A stretch of DNA of 64,000 nt from Pseudovibrio denitrificans JCM 12308 (GTDB taxonomy: Bacteria; Pseudomonadota; Alphaproteobacteria; Rhizobiales; Stappiaceae). Below, one piece after another: positions 34,058 to 55,079 of this stretch. The translations under genes and the position numbers were made by a program. The notes below the pieces were generated by a model, which was not told the DNA's origin, did no database searches, and saw only the letters and a list, made by a program, of their open reading frames with translations. The stretch spans positions 310,001 through 374,000 of the forward strand of contig NZ_BAZK01000001.1 in assembly GCF_001310815.1 (NCBI RefSeq), given 5' to 3'. Every line of letters starts with the position of its first letter. The first letter of the stretch is position 1.

Positions 34058-34314
34058 TTATCGGTTGTCAGCCTGCGATCTTACAAGGGTAAGACCTTTT
34101 CTGGTGACACGATAAGGCGCGCTTTTCTTAGACGCGATCAATTTTCGACGCTTGAGTTTGCGAAATAACTCGTCGCTCAGGCCAGAAAACCTCCACCCTC
34201 ACGGGTGAATAATTCAATTTTGGAAATACGGCGGTGGTCGTCTTTTTCGACGCGGATGCAGCCGCCTTGCGCCAACATATGCAGAATTTTCTGCTCTTGT
34301 CTGGAGATGTCCAT
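34058..34314 (-). CDS. yjhX: YjhX/TopAI-family protein (frame broken near 34190)
   Basis: Family of a small toxin that inhibits topoisomerase I in E. coli. The minus-strand frame starts MDISRQEQKILHMLAQGG, as YjhX does. Near 34190 the coding strand has GGTGGAGGTTTTC, one G short. With GGTGGAGGGTTTTC the frame continues as FSGLSDELFRKLKRRKLIAS and ends VRSQADNR at a TAA at 34058. Repaired length is 85 aa, equal to E. coli YjhX. The lesion may be an error like the others, or real loss of the toxin. Confidence 0.78.
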
Positions 34315-35072
34315 AAGAACTGGTTACCCAAATACATGCGTAGTCTCTCCCCTTCCAACCGAGTTGGAGTGGGTGCATGAATTTCAGCTTCCTGCCAGGT
34401 CAGGCATCACTCGAATGCGAGCAATAGATCCAACCCTTTTTACAATGCGAACAACATGTCGGCCTGTAAAAAGGCAGTCAGCAAGGTTACCGATCCTCTT
34501 GTTTAAACAAAAACTCTTCAGATTTATGGCGATGAAGCAGCGGCTTCCTACATTACAACGTCCGCAGCTGGCAAGCATTTTTTGAAAAAGGAAGCACCTC
34601 AAGCAAATGGCACGCTCAGCCTACACATAACTCGATCGACACAAGAGCAAGCTGCGTTCTCAAAAAACGCCGGCTTGATACAACATCAAACAGGCGTAAC
34701 AATTTGATTTTAATTGATTAACTCTAAATCGCGCCAGGGCAATTTGGCGCTTCACCGCTTATTCATAATAATATCATGCTTATCAAGTACTTATGAATAT
34801 AATTTGATCAATTAATCGCACACAAATCACATAGCCTATTTTTTTAGTCTTACATTTTGAAGTCAACCAATCACCAGTTTCTATGTCCAGTGCGATTAAA
34901 AGCCTGCTTGCCCACTCAATCAACACACGCGGCAAATTGGGACAAAGGCAACGCTCTTTAAACTCGTAATCTTACTCGACCTTTTTGAGCTGCACTCAAA
35001 CCTAAACTTTGAACATGTTAAAAAGAAAACTATACTAATACGTGTATTTGACTAAAAGTACGAGGTTGTGTT
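34315..35072. other. Long AT-rich spacer at accessory-region border
   Basis: About 760 bases. Short open frames exist but none has a family-like sequence or a ribosome site. It separates the yjhX pair from plus-strand secreted-protein genes and marks the visible left limit of the accessory region. No tRNA or obvious attachment repeat was seen. Confidence 0.4.
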
Positions 35073-40397: not shown

Positions 40398-41265
40398 TTA
40401 ACTCCCTAACCGCGTCTCCAGCAGAGAGATCGGCACCACCACTGCACGTCGCTGCTTACCGTCTATGGTGATGGCGTTTTGGGATTGGTGGGCGGCGGGG
40501 AGTTTTTGGAGGGCGAGTTTCCAGTTGCCGTGCCATTGGGTGAGGCGGAAGACCTCCCACAGGTACTCGTGATCGTAGGCGATGGCGACGCCATCCGGGT
40601 ACGCGTGGGGGCGCAGTTTGATGCCCAGTTGCTCCATCCGGCGGGCGCCGACGTCATCTGCCAGGCGAAGGCCAGGGCAATGCGGACGGAGAGGTTTCTG
40701 CCGCAGGTGAAGTTGATCAGGTGTTTCAGGCAGCCATCGGGATCATCGGCAGCGGTGCCGGCGACTTCGTTGACGCCCTCTCCTGCGATATCCGGCAGGC
40801 CGAGCCTGTCCCACAGGGCCATGGCGGCCTCGCGGCCATAGATGTAGCGCGCTTCTTTGAGGAGATTGGCGCGGGCGTTCATCTCGTTGACCAGCAGAAC
40901 CTGCTTTGCGTCTGGCGGCTCGGGCTTTTGGGGTGTGGGGCCCATGGAGTAGATGCCGGACTGGCGCAGCGCGGGCAGCACTTCTGCCGTCACCCATTTT
41001 TGAACTTTTTGGCCGCTGGCTTGCGGGATTCAAAAATGAGCGAGTAGAGACCGCTCTCATTCACCGCTGTTGTTTGACGCTTGCCCGCGTTCGTGTCGGT
41101 TGAAACGACACGAACGTCATCGCTGTCAAGTTTGGTGACAGCATCGCGGCTGTTCTTGATTTCCAACGCCGCGCAGACATCTTTGGCGATGAACCAGAAC
41201 AGGCCTTCCTCCGTCCATGTACGCAGGCTGTGGTCTTCAAAGTCGAAGATGGTGAGCGCACTCAT
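40398..41265 (-). CDS. Phage antirepressor, Bro-N domain (two frame breaks)
   Basis: A 289-aa protein when repaired. The N-terminal Bro-N domain (about 1-100) has FIAKDVCAALEI and SGLYSLIFESRK, typical of phage antirepressors. Breaks: near 40999 an A5 run should be A6 (KFKKWVTAEVLPALRQSG), and near 40664 GCCTGGCAG should be GCCCTGGCAG (ALADDVGARRMEQLG). The C-terminal part has no known domain. GGGAGG lies before the ATG, which overlaps the upstream stop (ATGA). It would act by opposing a phage repressor. Confidence 0.8.
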
Positions 41266-41519
41266 GCCTGCCCTCCCCGGTTCAGCTTGCGGACGTTGAG
41301 TTCCACCGTTTCCAGAGCTTTGATGAGGCTGGTGTGCCGGTCTTCCAGCTCGCCCTGCAGAGCCAGTGCTGCGTTCCACAGAGGATCGGAGCTAGCGATC
41401 TCGTTGGAGATGTGGCCGAGCGCGGTGAAGAGCCCTTCCATGCGGCTGCTCAAGGTGTTGAGCGTGGCAAGGCCGCTGTGAATGTCATTAAGTGAGGTAT
41501 TCCGGGAAAGTTCTGTCAT
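41262..41519 (-). CDS. Small protein in antirepressor operon
   Basis: 85 aa (MTELSRNTSLNDIHSG start), helical, no known family. AAGGGA lies nine bases before the ATG and falls inside a predicted leader stem. Its stop overlaps the antirepressor start as ATGA, so the two are coupled. A similar-sized protein stands in the same place in the Rha operon at 54.4 kb. Confidence 0.65.
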   Translation of the reverse strand: MTELSRNTSLNDIHSGLATLNTLSSRMEGLFTALGHISNEIASSDPLWNAALALQGELEDRHTSLIKALETVELNVRKLNRGGQA

Positions 41520-41528
41520 GACTAATTC

Positions 41529-41608
41529 CCTTGTGTGCGAAATTAGTCTGGTCGACACCTGCGAAAATGGCGGCCAGACGCCACGGGTTCGCAGACCGGT
41601 ACACAAGG
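41529..41608 (-). promoter_or_regulatory. Structured leader A covering the ribosome site
   Basis: Outer stem CCTTGTGT (41529-41536) with ACACAAGG (41601-41608); the strand of the first arm includes the AAGGGA ribosome site of the 41519 gene when read on the minus strand. Inner stem CTGCGAA (41559-41565) with TTCGCAG (41588-41594). Innermost TGGCG (41568-41572) with CGCCA (41579-41583). The 13-base motif TGGCGGCCAGACG (41568-41580) is identical in leader B. Confidence 0.6.
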
Positions 41609-41844
41609 AAACCGGCAGGCACAAAGCCTCCCATAACGCCTGACCATATGCGCAGCAAAAAACGCGCTCAAAAAGCGGTTTTCTGGCGCGTCGACGCCTT
41701 GTGTGTTCGTTCAGGCTGCGAAACCCGGCTCACCGCTTTCAGATGAGCTTGGACAGGTTGACGGAGGATGGGAAGGTTGTCAAGGGAGGTGGAATCTGTC
41801 CAAAACAATATCTCCATTACATTCTATAAAAGCTGTTTTTAAAA

Positions 41845-42657
41845 ATGTCAGAAAGCACGTCCTCTTCACCTGCCGAAAGCAAAAAAGACAAAACATGGCA
41901 GCACTACGCTATCGCGGTATTGGTCTTGTTTGTCATCATAGTTTGGTTCCTAAACTTAGATCACGCTTTGAACTCGCTTTCAGGAGAAGACGCCAAGATT
42001 TATGAGCTTGGCACACTCGGTGATGCATTCGGAATCGCCAACTCCCTGTTCTCCGGCCTAGCCTTCTTAGGACTGCTTTATGCGGTGAAGCTCCAGCGCG
42101 ATGAACTGCATGAGGTGAAAGAAGAACGAAAGGCAGTGGTGAAGCAATTTGAGCAGCAAGAACGGCAAGCCGAGATCAGGCATAAAGCTGAAATTGCGAA
42201 ATACGAGGAGCAGCTTGCGAACAGTAAGAAGCAGGAGTTGCGGAGAGAAAATGATGCTCGCTTCTTTCAACTGTTGAGCCTTTATCGAGAAAACTACAAC
42301 TCAGCTTCTGCTGACAAATTTCGTGGACCTAAAGGCTGGGATCAGTTGGCAAAAGCGTTGATTGGGGCAAGTGAAAATAGCGACATTTATCACACAACAG
42401 GTCAGTTTATTTGGGGAACGCATAGAACTCTTAAAGTTGCTCTAGATCAACTTAATGCATCCAGTACGTCAGGAGTGCATTCATCTGAGGAGATAAATAA
42501 TTATCATGTAATAATTATGGCGCAGCTAACAATTTGGGATGCATTAATATTTTGGAAATACGAGAAAAACATTGGAAGTAACTCGTCGGTCAAAATATTT
42601 ATAAAGGAGTACTTTATTATCAATGAAAGGACTGAGAAGTTTTTCGAGGATCAGTAA
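41845..42657 (+). CDS. putAbiC-like membrane protein, putative phage defence
   Basis: 270 aa. One or two hydrophobic segments (about 20-40 and 58-84), then a charged coiled coil (EVKEERKAVVKQFEQQERQ) and an ENDARFFQLLSLYRENYN segment. This order matches the putative phage abortive-infection family PF16872 as I remember it. No good ribosome site is seen. AT-rich DNA around it suggests transfer. It stands just upstream of a three-gene operon on the same strand. Confidence 0.6.
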   Translation: MSESTSSSPAESKKDKTWQHYAIAVLVLFVIIVWFLNLDHALNSLSGEDAKIYELGTLGDAFGIANSLFSGLAFLGLLYAVKLQRDELHEVKEERKAVVKQFEQQERQAEIRHKAEIAKYEEQLANSKKQELRRENDARFFQLLSLYRENYNSASADKFRGPKGWDQLAKALIGASENSDIYHTTGQFIWGTHRTLKVALDQLNASSTSGVHSSEEINNYHVIIMAQLTIWDALIFWKYEKNIGSNSSVKIFIKEYFIINERTEKFFEDQ

Positions 42658-47216: not shown

Positions 47217-48260
47217 TCAGAGCAGGAAACCGCTCAGGTCATAACCTTGACCGTCACTTCCAAAGACGAAATTGACATGCTCTTCGCTTGTATAGAAATC
47301 AGCCAGGATCACGCCGGTGTTCAGCTGACCATCTGCGAAGTCGTCCTGAGATGAAACGAAGAGGTCGTTTCCAACTTTGTAGAAGGCCAAATCGGCACCA
47401 AGTGTTTTATCAAGGAACACTCTGTCATTTGATCCGCCTGAATCACGGATGATTGCGATACCAGCTTCATAGTGCCGTATCTGATCATCGCCTGCTCCAA
47501 GCTCCACCTGCGCAGTCCCAGCACGTGTATGAACTTGGTCGTCGCCCTCACCAGCATCGATCAACGCGTTTAGTCCATCGGTGACAATGACATCATTACC
47601 CATGCCTGCGAACACTTCAGCAAACTCACCGTAAGTCTCAATCGTGTCCGCACCGTCTCCAGCATTAATTGTTGCGTGAGCACCTCTGGAAATGATCGTG
47701 TCATCACCTTCACCGCTGGTGATTTTGTTACCACTGGCCGTCGCGTCAACGAAAATAAAGTCATTTCCGGTGCCACCATCAACGGTGTTGTTGCTCCCAT
47801 AAGATTCGATGTGATCGTTATCAGCGCCTCCTGATAGAAGTGAATGTGCACCGGTAGAGCTGACAATGTAGTCCTCTCCATCACCGCCATAGAGTTTGTC
47901 TGTACCCTGTGTCCCCTTTTCATCCAGTAGGTCGTCACCACTACGGCCAAACACTACATCACTACCAGTTCCACCGTAGAGCCGATCATTACCGCTGCCA
48001 CCATCCAGGTAATCATCGCCCTGATCACCATAAAGATAGTCATTGCCCTGCTCACCGTGCAGAGCGTCATCATCATCGCCACCTGAAATTCTGTCGTAGC
48101 CGTAACCGCCTTCAATGTAGTCTTTGCCTTCGCCGCCGTAGATCAGGTCGTCGCCGCCCTCACCGTAAAGCATATCATTGCCACCCAAGCCTCGAATTTC
48201 ATCGTTTTCTTCGTTGCCATGAATATCATTGTTGTTGTGATCGCCGACGTAATAACCCAT
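47217..48260 (-). CDS. RTX calcium-binding repeat protein
   Basis: 347 aa, almost wholly of RTX nonapeptide repeats. A block of about nine GGxGxDxLx units at residues 25-105 (GGNDMLYGE, GGDDLIYGG, SGNDRLYGG and others) is followed by more divergent ones. Such repeats fold as Ca2+-bound beta rolls after export by type I secretion. No enzymatic domain, transporter gene or hydrophobic N-terminal signal is visible. The hydrophobic C-terminus (YDLSGFLL) may be a secretion signal. Confidence 0.85.
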   Translation of the reverse strand: MGYYVGDHNNNDIHGNEENDEIRGLGGNDMLYGEGGDDLIYGGEGKDYIEGGYGYDRISGGDDDDALHGEQGNDYLYGDQGDDYLDGGSGNDRLYGGTGSDVVFGRSGDDLLDEKGTQGTDKLYGGDGEDYIVSSTGAHSLLSGGADNDHIESYGSNNTVDGGTGNDFIFVDATASGNKITSGEGDDTIISRGAHATINAGDGADTIETYGEFAEVFAGMGNDVIVTDGLNALIDAGEGDDQVHTRAGTAQVELGAGDDQIRHYEAGIAIIRDSGGSNDRVFLDKTLGADLAFYKVGNDLFVSSQDDFADGQLNTGVILADFYTSEEHVNFVFGSDGQGYDLSGFLL

Positions 48261-51257: not shown

Positions 51258-51490
51258 CTATGCCGCCTTGGCCCTGCCTTCGACCTCAGTTATTAGACCG
51301 CCACCTTTGGAGTAGGTGTGCGCCACGCTTTCAGCGATGAACTCCAGCCCATCGACGCCCGGTCGCACACCGGCATAGGAGAACGGTTGTCCGGCCAGAA
51401 ATTCTGGTCTGCCTTCAATTGTGACAGCTGAGGTCACCTCAGCTCGTTTGCAAAGTGCTGCAAAACTGGATGGGATTGTGGTGCGTTCAT
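51258..51490 (-). CDS. Small protein with gpD C-terminal-like tail (frame broken near 51437)
   Basis: The ATG at 51490 overlaps the upstream stop (ATGA) and has GGGAGG six bases before it. The frame starts MNAPQSHPVLQHFANEL and then stops. Adding one G near 51437 continues it as VTSAVTIEGRPEFLAG to 51258 (77 aa repaired). The later part (RPGVDGLEFIAESVAHTYSKGG) resembles the C-terminus of phage late-control/baseplate protein gpD. It may be a remnant or a stand-alone domain. Confidence 0.5.
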
Positions 51491-52895: not shown

Positions 52896-53683
52896 GCAGC
52901 ATGCCTCCGTTTACCCGCATAAAAAACGCCTGCAGCGGAGTTTGCATCCCAACGCCTTTCTGGCGCTCCGAACTCACATCCCTCCTCTGCAAGGAACAGC
53001 AGCATGTAGAGTTCGCTTAGTCTTCGTGCTTCCGACGCGTTTGTCTCGCTCCTCAGCAATCTTGTCTCAATCTCACCGAGAAATTGCCGGTGAGATAAGT
53101 TACCGTCATTTAAAAGCTTTTTCTGATAAACAGGGTTTGCATAGAGCCGTTCCAGGAACTCTGCAGCAGCAAGTTCTTCCCCCCAAGGCTCAATAGGAAT
53201 ATCGAGCTCACTTTCATCCCGAGGGCGGTGTCCATGCAAAAGCTGGCACTGTTCGTTGAGAAGCAGTTCTTTATCTACCTCTTTCACGCGCTTCAGATCG
53301 TCAAGCGAAGCAACGCGGCTAATTCCTGCAGCTTTGCGAATGGCGTAATCATGAGAGACCTTCAACGTTTCCAGCCAAACCTCCAACTGGTCCTCATCAA
53401 TCAGAGAGTTCAGCGCTTTCTTTACCGGTGTAAGAATATCGCCGATATACGCCTCATGAGCATCATGGAGCAAAGCCAGCAAACGCAGCTCTGGATGATC
53501 CCCTTCACACACGTGGTCGTGTGCCAGACAGCAATGCTGAGCAACCGAATACGGCATCCGTGTATGCCCATTGAAACGAGGGATGCGGGCCAGAACCTCA
53601 GCAACCTCCCAGAAACTTACAGCGCGAGCTTGAGGGTTAAGAAGATCCCATTTTCGACCATAGCGGGTAGTAATCGTTGTCAT
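52892..53683 (-). CDS. HD-domain phosphohydrolase
   Basis: 263 aa. The metal motif is seen in YSVAQHCCLAHD and LALLHDAHEAYIGD, as in YfbR/YedB-like nucleotidases. It may hydrolyse nucleotides during phage growth. The start overlaps the Rha stop (ATGA). Such HD proteins are frequent in early regions of alphaproteobacterial prophages. Confidence 0.78.
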   Translation of the reverse strand: MTTITTRYGRKWDLLNPQARAVSFWEVAEVLARIPRFNGHTRMPYSVAQHCCLAHDHVCEGDHPELRLLALLHDAHEAYIGDILTPVKKALNSLIDEDQLEVWLETLKVSHDYAIRKAAGISRVASLDDLKRVKEVDKELLLNEQCQLLHGHRPRDESELDIPIEPWGEELAAAEFLERLYANPVYQKKLLNDGNLSHRQFLGEIETRLLRSETNASEARRLSELYMLLFLAEEGCEFGAPERRWDANSAAGVFYAGKRRHAA

Positions 53684-54447
53684 GCCGCTTCTCCTCGGTC
53701 TGCGACATCAATCAGCTGCATCAGGTCTGCGAAGGTGGAGATGTAGTAGAGAGGTTGGGTTTCTCGCGGATTGTTAGGGCTGACTTGGTTTTTGCCGAAG
53801 GACAGGCCCTTTTCTGTCAGCAGTTTGAAGCGCTTTTCCTTGCCGCTGGTGGAGGTGCGGGTGCGCTCCTCCAAGATACCAAGGTCCAGCAGCACCTTGT
53901 TGACGGCGCGGGCGGAGCGGTTTTCTCCGATTTCCTTCAGCAGAGTTGTGAGCGCCAGACAGGTCTTCTCATCAACATAGTCAGGCAACATGTTGGTTGA
54001 GCAGCCATGGTTGTTGGCGACGGTTTCAATCATCTTGAGCTTTGAACTGTCAGACATGGCAAGCGCCCGTCCCGCTGCTTCTGCAACAGCCATTTCCATT
54101 TCAATAGCGATGACTTGCGGAGGCCGATCATAGTTGCTGGAAGCACGCCGATCCCGATACTCCAGAAACGCTTCAACAAGCTTACGTTGCCCTTCTTTTG
54201 ATTTCCGGCCACCAATGAATGGCATTGCAATCAACGCTGCTTTTTCTGACAGCTGATACATCGGCTGTTCTTTGTTCTGAGCGTTGAGGTAGGAGGACGA
54301 CGCAAATTCCCGGAGTCCTAATGTCCCCTCATTAATCAATCCCCGCACGCTTCTGAGCACTTCGTCATGCCGCCGACCAAACACTTCCGCAATCACCAGA
54401 GTGTCTGTAACAGGCTTACCATTTTCAATTTTGATCAGATGTTGCAT
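53680..54447 (-). CDS. Rha-family phage regulatory protein
   Basis: 255 aa from the ATG at 54447, which has AAGGAG just upstream. The Rha domain (about 10-105) has VIAEVFGRRHDEVLRSVRGL and YQLSEKAALIAMPFIGG. The C-terminal part (ENRSARAVNKVLLDLGILEE) resembles a KilA-C/antirepressor tail. It overlaps both neighbours, so it is coupled to the 93-aa protein and to the HD protein. Second antirepressor of the element. Confidence 0.82.
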   Translation of the reverse strand: MQHLIKIENGKPVTDTLVIAEVFGRRHDEVLRSVRGLINEGTLGLREFASSSYLNAQNKEQPMYQLSEKAALIAMPFIGGRKSKEGQRKLVEAFLEYRDRRASSNYDRPPQVIAIEMEMAVAEAAGRALAMSDSSKLKMIETVANNHGCSTNMLPDYVDEKTCLALTTLLKEIGENRSARAVNKVLLDLGILEERTRTSTSGKEKRFKLLTEKGLSFGKNQVSPNNPRETQPLYYISTFADLMQLIDVADRGEAA

Positions 54448-54716
54448 TCCGAAACTCCTTGGGTTGGTAAAAGCGTGCGGGTGGAGTGCCACGCGGATTG
54501 GGTGTGGGTGAAAATCTCTTTGTGGTGGGTGAGAAGAAGGGATTGCAGGGTCACAATGGACTGCACCGCCTCGCACTGATGGGGAGGCAGGTTGTTGCCG
54601 AGCGCGTTCATGGCGTGCAAAAGCGCGCCGAACTGGGCCACAGCTAAATCAATATGTTCAAGGGAATTCCGTAGGTCTCGGCACGCACGTGTCGTGTCAT
54701 CTGCCAGCACTGCCAT
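54435..54716 (-). CDS. Small protein in Rha operon
   Basis: 93 aa (MAVLADDTTRACRDLRNSLE start), helical, no known family. AAAGGAG lies nine bases before the ATG and falls within a leader stem. It overlaps the Rha start by 13 bases. The same placement, small helical protein before an antirepressor, is seen at 41262-41519. Confidence 0.62.
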   Translation of the reverse strand: MAVLADDTTRACRDLRNSLEHIDLAVAQFGALLHAMNALGNNLPPHQCEAVQSIVTLQSLLLTHHKEIFTHTQSAWHSTRTLLPTQGVSECNI

Positions 54717-54724
54717 GGCTAATC

Positions 54725-54809
54725 TCCTTTGGTCAGAATGTATCTGACTGCCGGAGGTACCAATCTCTGGCGGCCAGACGAGCAGGATTGGTACTACCGT
54801 CCCAAAGGA
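54725..54809 (-). promoter_or_regulatory. Structured leader B covering the ribosome site
   Basis: Outer stem TCCTTTGG (54725-54732) with CCAAAGGA (54802-54809), including the AAAGGAG ribosome site of the 54716 gene on the minus strand. Inner stem GTACCAATC (54757-54765) with GATTGGTAC (54786-54794). Innermost TCTGG with CCAGA. A side hairpin pairs GTCAG (54732-54736) with CTGAC (54744-54748). TGGCGGCCAGACG (54768-54780) is identical to leader A. Confidence 0.62.
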
Positions 54810-55079
54810 AAACGGCGCGCGTGAGCGCTCCCGCCCGCCTAGCCATAAAAGCAAAACGCCGCTGGCATAGACATGCCGCGGCGCGAAGCGTGCGCCTTTG
54901 GATCTGGAAGGGGTACCAATCCCCGCACGCCTTTGTGTGACGCGCTCACTAGCAAACCACCAGCTGAGCGGAATCATGGCCTGATTTGTACCTGTTGTCA
55001 ACGCAGCTGGAATCGCGGATAGGTTATTTGACGCCATGTAAGGACAACCATGAAGAGCGGTCAGAGGAGAGATCAAAGA
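54810..55079. other. Spacer between Rha operon and pentapeptide gene
   Basis: About 270 bases with the divergent promoters. It holds a second GGTACCAATCC-type sequence near 54912-54922, related to the leader B arm. No gene seen. Confidence 0.4.

Follow-up and report, generated by a model that had tools for sequence, protein, structure and literature searches.

The window analyzed here, a stretch of 64,000 nucleotides from Pseudovibrio denitrificans JCM 12308, contains a segment (41529-41608) whose two ends are perfectly complementary over 8 bp (41601-41608 with 41529-41536), and the second of these arms (41529-41536) overlaps the AAGGGA ribosome site of a gene starting at 41519. An earlier note had read this arrangement as a self-contained leader hairpin in which the ribosome site of an antirepressor operon is masked and its translation may be coupled to a signal, and had pointed to a second leader with the same layout, in which the arms are different yet still pair. 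These observations hold: at both places (loci A and B), two versions of one arrangement, an antirepressor operon has its ribosome site within a paired region, and it is the pairing rather than the sequence that is conserved.

A covariance search with Rfam models identified C4 antisense RNAs (RF01695) on the minus strand at both loci, scoring 64.7 bits at A and 62.9 bits at B against a cut-off of 45 (Table 1). Both matches span the whole 87-position model (positions 1-87), and they are the only RF01695 matches found in the 6.05-Mb assembly. In each RNA, b' can pair with the ribosome site, and the sequence just 5' of that site is complementary to a' (names a' and b' as in PMC5320573, available in part). 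Downstream lies an antirepressor gene, of Bro-N type and broken at A and of Rha type at B, with a small open reading frame (ORF) in between. A second copy of the C4 targets, a1 and b1, is present upstream of C4 at A and B and pairs with the cognate C4. In the P1 record, a1 and b1 precede c4 and are labeled as putative C4 target sites, a2 and b2 follow it, and the order of the P1 immI operon (a1, b1, c4, a2, b2, icd, ant) is the order at both loci. The RNA at A and B is a real functional RNA, as had been suspected, of a family already in Rfam, and the system is of a known kind in an alphaproteobacterial prophage rather than a new signal-sensing leader; nothing seen here points to sensing of a ligand or signal. 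We are highly confident that each locus is a P1 immI-type operon with a C4 switch, its cis targets and an antirepressor. The interval 41529-41608 cuts C4 in half, and the actual feature at A is larger, covering about 41517-41748 on the minus strand.

Table 1. Features of the two C4 modules (positions in the window).
Feature	Position	Strand	Details
Upstream element A (a1b1, isrK-like) and terminator-like hairpin	41657-41748	-	a1 41722-41716, b1 41704-41697
C4 antisense RNA A	41566-41651	-	b' loop 41612-41601, a' 41595-41588; RF01695 and fold
Target A	41525-41565	-	a2 41565-41558, b2 41536-41525 over the ribosome site; pairing
Small ORF A (85 aa), positional counterpart of P1 icd	41262-41519	-	stop overlaps the next start (ATGA)
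Antirepressor gene A, broken	40398-41265	-	Bro-N fragment at 41265-40990; other frames hold additional fragments
Upstream element B (a1b1)	54852-54943	-	a1 54923-54913, b1 54902-54895; pairing with C4-B loops
C4 antisense RNA B	54766-54850	-	b' loop 54811-54802, a' 54794-54784; RF01695
Target B	54723-54765	-	a2 54765-54757, b2 54732-54723 over the ribosome site; pairing
Small ORF B (93 aa)	54435-54716	-	overlaps the Rha start by 13 bases
Antirepressor gene B (Rha type, 255 aa), apparently intact	53680-54447	-	PF09669, E 1.3e-14

All four sites pair with their cognate C4 across loci. The pairing set comprised 73 loci (C4 loci from the genome searches plus P1 and Gifsy-1; the phylum sample gave 30, from among the matches listed), 70 of which had distinct loops and full flanks; the three with repeated loops or short flanks were left out, and the counts also leave out 119 pattern loci (L023-L141) and 33 viral contigs (L183-L215). 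For each locus we determined the longest helix of the a' or b' segment with the 200 nt upstream or the 110 nt downstream. Cognate helices scored at least 7 at a1 in 64, at b1 in 62, at a2 in 63 and at b2 in 63 of the 70 loci, versus 17.7%, 25.4%, 9.5% and 18.4% of mismatched pairs, respectively; the loci are related to varying degrees, and taking mismatched partners from the same set helps without fully removing shared ancestry. None of 10,000 permutations reached the observed mean at any of the four sites. Site positions were tight: the median distance to C4 was about 72 nt for a1 and 57 nt for b1 on the upstream side, and 3 nt for a2 and 33 nt for b2 on the downstream side. Applied to P1, the method recovered the annotated a1, b1 and b2 within about one base, and only 5 of 7 bases of a2 because our cut of C4 included the other two. 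In a first test based on duplex energy, every site reached p <= 5e-5 over 59 loci, and the median ranks were sharper for a1 and b2 (0.05 and 0.07) than for a2 and b1 (0.19 and 0.18). Predicted duplex energies between the two modules favored the cognate partner in 8/8 comparisons, least clearly for b'; for a' with the upstream site, the cognate pairs reached -17.4 (A) and -17.7 (B), against -10.7 for A with B and -5.6 for B with A.

In P1, C4 blocks translation. By analogy, a block of translation at b2 is the best-supported mode of action for the present RNAs. We propose that a single transcript would carry a1-b1, the terminator-like hairpin, C4, a2-b2, the small ORF and the antirepressor gene, and that C4 would likely be excised from it, as RNase P does in P1, where processing yields about 77 nt (PMC5320573, available in part). 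The loops of C4 would pair with a2 and with b2, the latter lying over the small ORF's ribosome site, and would thereby block translation of the small ORF; through the overlapping reading frames this block would likely carry over to the antirepressor, and with the antirepressor off the prophage repressor would stay active. The a1b1 element would most likely tune the switch, either through early termination promoted by C4 or as a short a1b1 RNA that soaks up C4. A consensus scan of 41450-41850 found no sigma-70 promoter.

Upstream element A matched the isrK model (RF01394) with 36.9 bits (cut-off 50) and c4-a1b1 (RF03163) with 13.5 bits (cut-off 46.7); at B, isrK reached 16.5 bits (E 0.14, not significant; cut-off 50) and c4-a1b1, which Weinberg et al. 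2010 (PMC2864571, available in part) list as a gammaproteobacterial and phage motif, was absent among matches up to E 10. The weak isrK scores alone mean little, because at E <= 1 the model also matches in 10/14 control genomes, in none of them above the cut-off. Among 20 alphaproteobacterial C4 loci of our choosing, A and B included, isrK matched at E <= 0.01 in 12, always below the cut-off and always directly upstream of C4. Between a1b1 and C4, a terminator-like hairpin occurred at 39/70 loci, versus 7/70 in a control stretch; the scan found none in B nor in 31/70 loci. A conserved leader ORF from an AUG near the 5' end of C4, suggested by Gifsy-1 orf45, was considered as well and rejected for want of frame preference: ATG occurs within the first 14 bases of 61/61 C4 sequences, and its frame was open for at least 25 codons in 40/61, against 44/61 and 39/61 for the other two frames, so that there is no sign of coding.

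The Gifsy-1 prophage links the upstream element to published data. In its record (L217), Rfam matches stand in a row across 34131-34329, with isrK at 34316-34240, c4-a1b1 at 34329-34277 (48.1 bits, cut-off 46.7) and C4 at 34214-34131 (69 bits). The isrK match shares bases with c4-a1b1 and precedes C4, which places a C4 RNA inside the published orf45/STnc1160 region and suggests that IsrK may act by titrating it. Counting from the first base of isrK (+1), 12/12 checked base positions of PMC4825925 (available in part, here and below) carry the named base; G28 and G31 fall within a1, and C159 and C162 within a' of C4.

One reading of a1b1 is that it serves as an attenuator: C4 on the nascent a1b1 would favor the terminator between a1b1 and C4, and C4 would thereby limit its own transcript and the operon, like the P4 CI RNA with seqA. 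The excess of terminator-like hairpins over the control stretch is consistent with this, as are the Gifsy-1 findings that IsrK in trans raised transcription about 8-fold and that a1 mutants in cis were derepressed (93 and 218 units), and the authors themselves named the parallel with P4 CI, seqA and seqC (PMC4825925); the loci in which the scan found no terminator, B among them, argue against it, and we place this reading just short of an even chance. A second reading, to which we would give much the same credence, hesitating slightly to accept it, is that a short terminated a1b1 RNA (IsrK in Gifsy-1) would act as a sponge, mimicking the target, binding C4 and turning antirepressor translation on. 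Across our loci, pairing with the cognate C4 is about equally good at the upstream sites (a1, b1) and at the downstream ones (a2, b2). In Gifsy-1, translation rose about 140-fold when IsrK was supplied in trans, a G28 or G31 mutation in IsrK abolished this activation, C159U and C162U were derepressed, and matched double mutants stayed partly derepressed at 224 and 327 units versus 4 in the wild type, all of which point to a sponge; the derepression of the a1 mutants in cis would be unexpected for a pure one, co-expressed orf45/STnc1160 strengthened the IsrK effect, and the authors report that orf45 translation is needed, saw a tagged product and read IsrK as a cis structure switch (PMC4825925).

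Attenuator and sponge may also be combined. IsrK and c4-a1b1 would then be one thing, a decoy and attenuator of C4 that comes built into the module. Such a module would be a double lock: C4 would hold down readthrough at a1b1 as well as translation at a2b2, and the short a1b1 RNA would lift both blocks by titrating C4. Two locks of this kind, differing in their pairing sequences, would operate in this prophage family, one next to the genes for replication and the repressor, the other next to the lysis genes. The Gifsy-1 IsrK numbers would fit this combined model, which we offer tentatively, as a proposal somewhat more prone to fail than to stand. No mention of C4 RNA, P1 or immI was found in the available part of PMC4825925; a 2025 review treats IsrK and c4 RNA in separate paragraphs (PMC12197685), and both Rfam names stand side by side in one table (PMC12189769), these two sources likewise being available in part. 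The link between IsrK and C4 was not found in the literature searched, which left aside the supplements to Weinberg et al. (2010) and to the IsrK paper, and the literature searches returned nothing on isrK as a target mimic. C4 (P1) and IsrK (Gifsy-1), two research lines kept apart in the literature searched, parts of which were available, are tied together by this comparison. Should IsrK prove to be the a1b1 decoy that binds C4, the mutants already published for it would be informative about C4 pairing, and a simple experiment could decide whether titration of C4 turns these operons on.

Antirepressor A matches PF02498 (Bro-N, E 2e-19) and the PHROG anti-repressor Ant (E 2e-31), and antirepressor B has PHROG Rha-like and anti-repressor matches; neither small ORF has a Pfam match at E <= 0.01. 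At the aligned place of antirepressor A, a genus mate (L232) carries an uninterrupted, intact-looking ORF of 288 aa, and ORFs of 286-288 aa begin about 300 nt past C4 in L005, L007 and L223. In a wider set (n = 71), downstream ORFs matched Bro-N (11), AntA (4), Rha (3), KilA-N (2), ANT (1) and ORF6N (1), counts that rest on a crude choice of ORF (longest start within 700 nt), with wrong frames possible and one member able to match several families. Homologues with paired changes, for which the earlier note had proposed a covariance search, were found, and the antirepressor linkage it proposed to check proved frequent, not general, by this crude count. Some C4 RNAs precede ORFs that match GGDEF, LuxR-type, QslA, integrase (core) or other families and not antirepressors; reuse of C4 or a fault of the ORF choice are both possible.

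C4 was present in 10/16 genomes of the genus, in 17/397 of the order sample, 5/385 of the class sample and 62/398 of the phylum sample (each including the source genome). Among the matches listed, C4 arrays occur in tandem, three copies within about 1.5 kb in one genome (G816, contig C237, 13851-15365) and two within about 0.7 kb in another (G1005, contig C1, 796249-796961). Locus A had no blastn match among phage records, a first pattern scan of viral contigs gave 0 matches, and a literature search found nothing on C4 antisense RNA in alphaproteobacterial prophages. Within the genus, G328 has two C4 copies 37 kb apart on one strand, with a' the same as in A and as in B, and G1097 has two copies 34 kb apart. 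The blocks around A and B align to these paired copies, which assigns both modules to a single prophage family. The pieces between the paired copies (L233, L236) have no match of at least 100 nt in the window, and in G1097 two aligned blocks meet at window 51431-51433; the source prophage appears to lack an inner part, or else its relatives gained one. Positions 51431-51441 are a likely deletion point, where G1097 has more than 12 kb without a match in the window. The prophage region also contains a 347-aa ORF (47217-48260, minus strand) that is rich in glycine-aspartate repeats; by eye only, these resemble calcium-binding RTX repeats.

With antirepressor A broken, module A may be idle. It could be a relic in which C4-A is jobless or only silences incoming related phages, a reading in keeping with the broken gene and the apparently missing inner part; C4-A, a1b1 and a2b2 remain in register, which argues against decay, and we regard a relic as unlikely.

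The fold of the region bears on the single hairpin proposed at the outset. Cut out, segment 41529-41608 folds at -31.1 kcal/mol (z -3.0), and 2/200 shuffles fold as well; C4-A on its own reaches -41.3 kcal/mol (z -3.9, 0/200 shuffles as stable), with the a' stretch and b' loop largely unpaired in the predicted fold. Over the 161-nt stretch 41500-41660 (minus strand), the C4 fold of A wins by 7 kcal/mol (-61.1 vs -54.0 with the hairpin enforced), and the expected number of b'-b2 pairs in cis is 0.001. At B the two states are nearly level (-69.5 for C4 vs -69.2 for the hairpin, whose limits we set) with 5.9 expected b'-b2 pairs, so that b'-b2 pairing within one transcript is possible there. At A, the predicted fold puts the core of target b2 into a hairpin loop, an arrangement that would lend itself to loop-to-loop contact. 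The nested stems of the earlier note were thus real as arms (outer b'/b2, inner a'/a2) and misread as a fold: what it took for a self-contained leader is a separate antisense RNA, C4, followed in tandem by its target, and TGGCGGCCAGACG, which the stems were said to present, is part of the 3' strand of the C4 stem. That the ribosome site is masked by a cis hairpin alone, with no separate C4 RNA involved, is very improbable, for although the arms pair, the cut-out hairpin is stable and the cis form at B is level with the C4 fold, A folds better as C4, both loci match the whole C4 model and a1b1 would be left unexplained.

The finding belongs to the known phage immunity RNAs and occurs in two versions in this alphaproteobacterial prophage. 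Specialists may be interested in the presence, within a single prophage, of two C4 modules that pair through different sequences, and in the overlap of Gifsy-1 IsrK with the a1b1 element of a C4 RNA. Among known systems, the P4 CI RNA resembles C4 as a processed antisense RNA with complementary sites up- and downstream (seqA and seqC; PMC4825925, available in part), but it acts by transcription termination; the likeness drawn here is one of described layout. IsrK of Gifsy-1 shares with the upstream element its position before C4, the a1 hairpin and the terminator, whereas element A scores below the cut-off of the isrK model and element B not significantly. As in c4-a1b1, a target copy lies upstream and pairs with the cognate C4, although that Rfam model stays below its cut-off at A and is unlisted at B. 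The closest relative is C4 of P1 and P7 (immI, RF01695). The host class here differs, the antirepressors are of Bro-N and Rha type, and one prophage carries two modules of different pairing sequences; shared with P1 and P7 are the match to the whole covariance model, the order of sites and genes, b' on the ribosome site with a' just upstream, and a small ORF overlapping the antirepressor.
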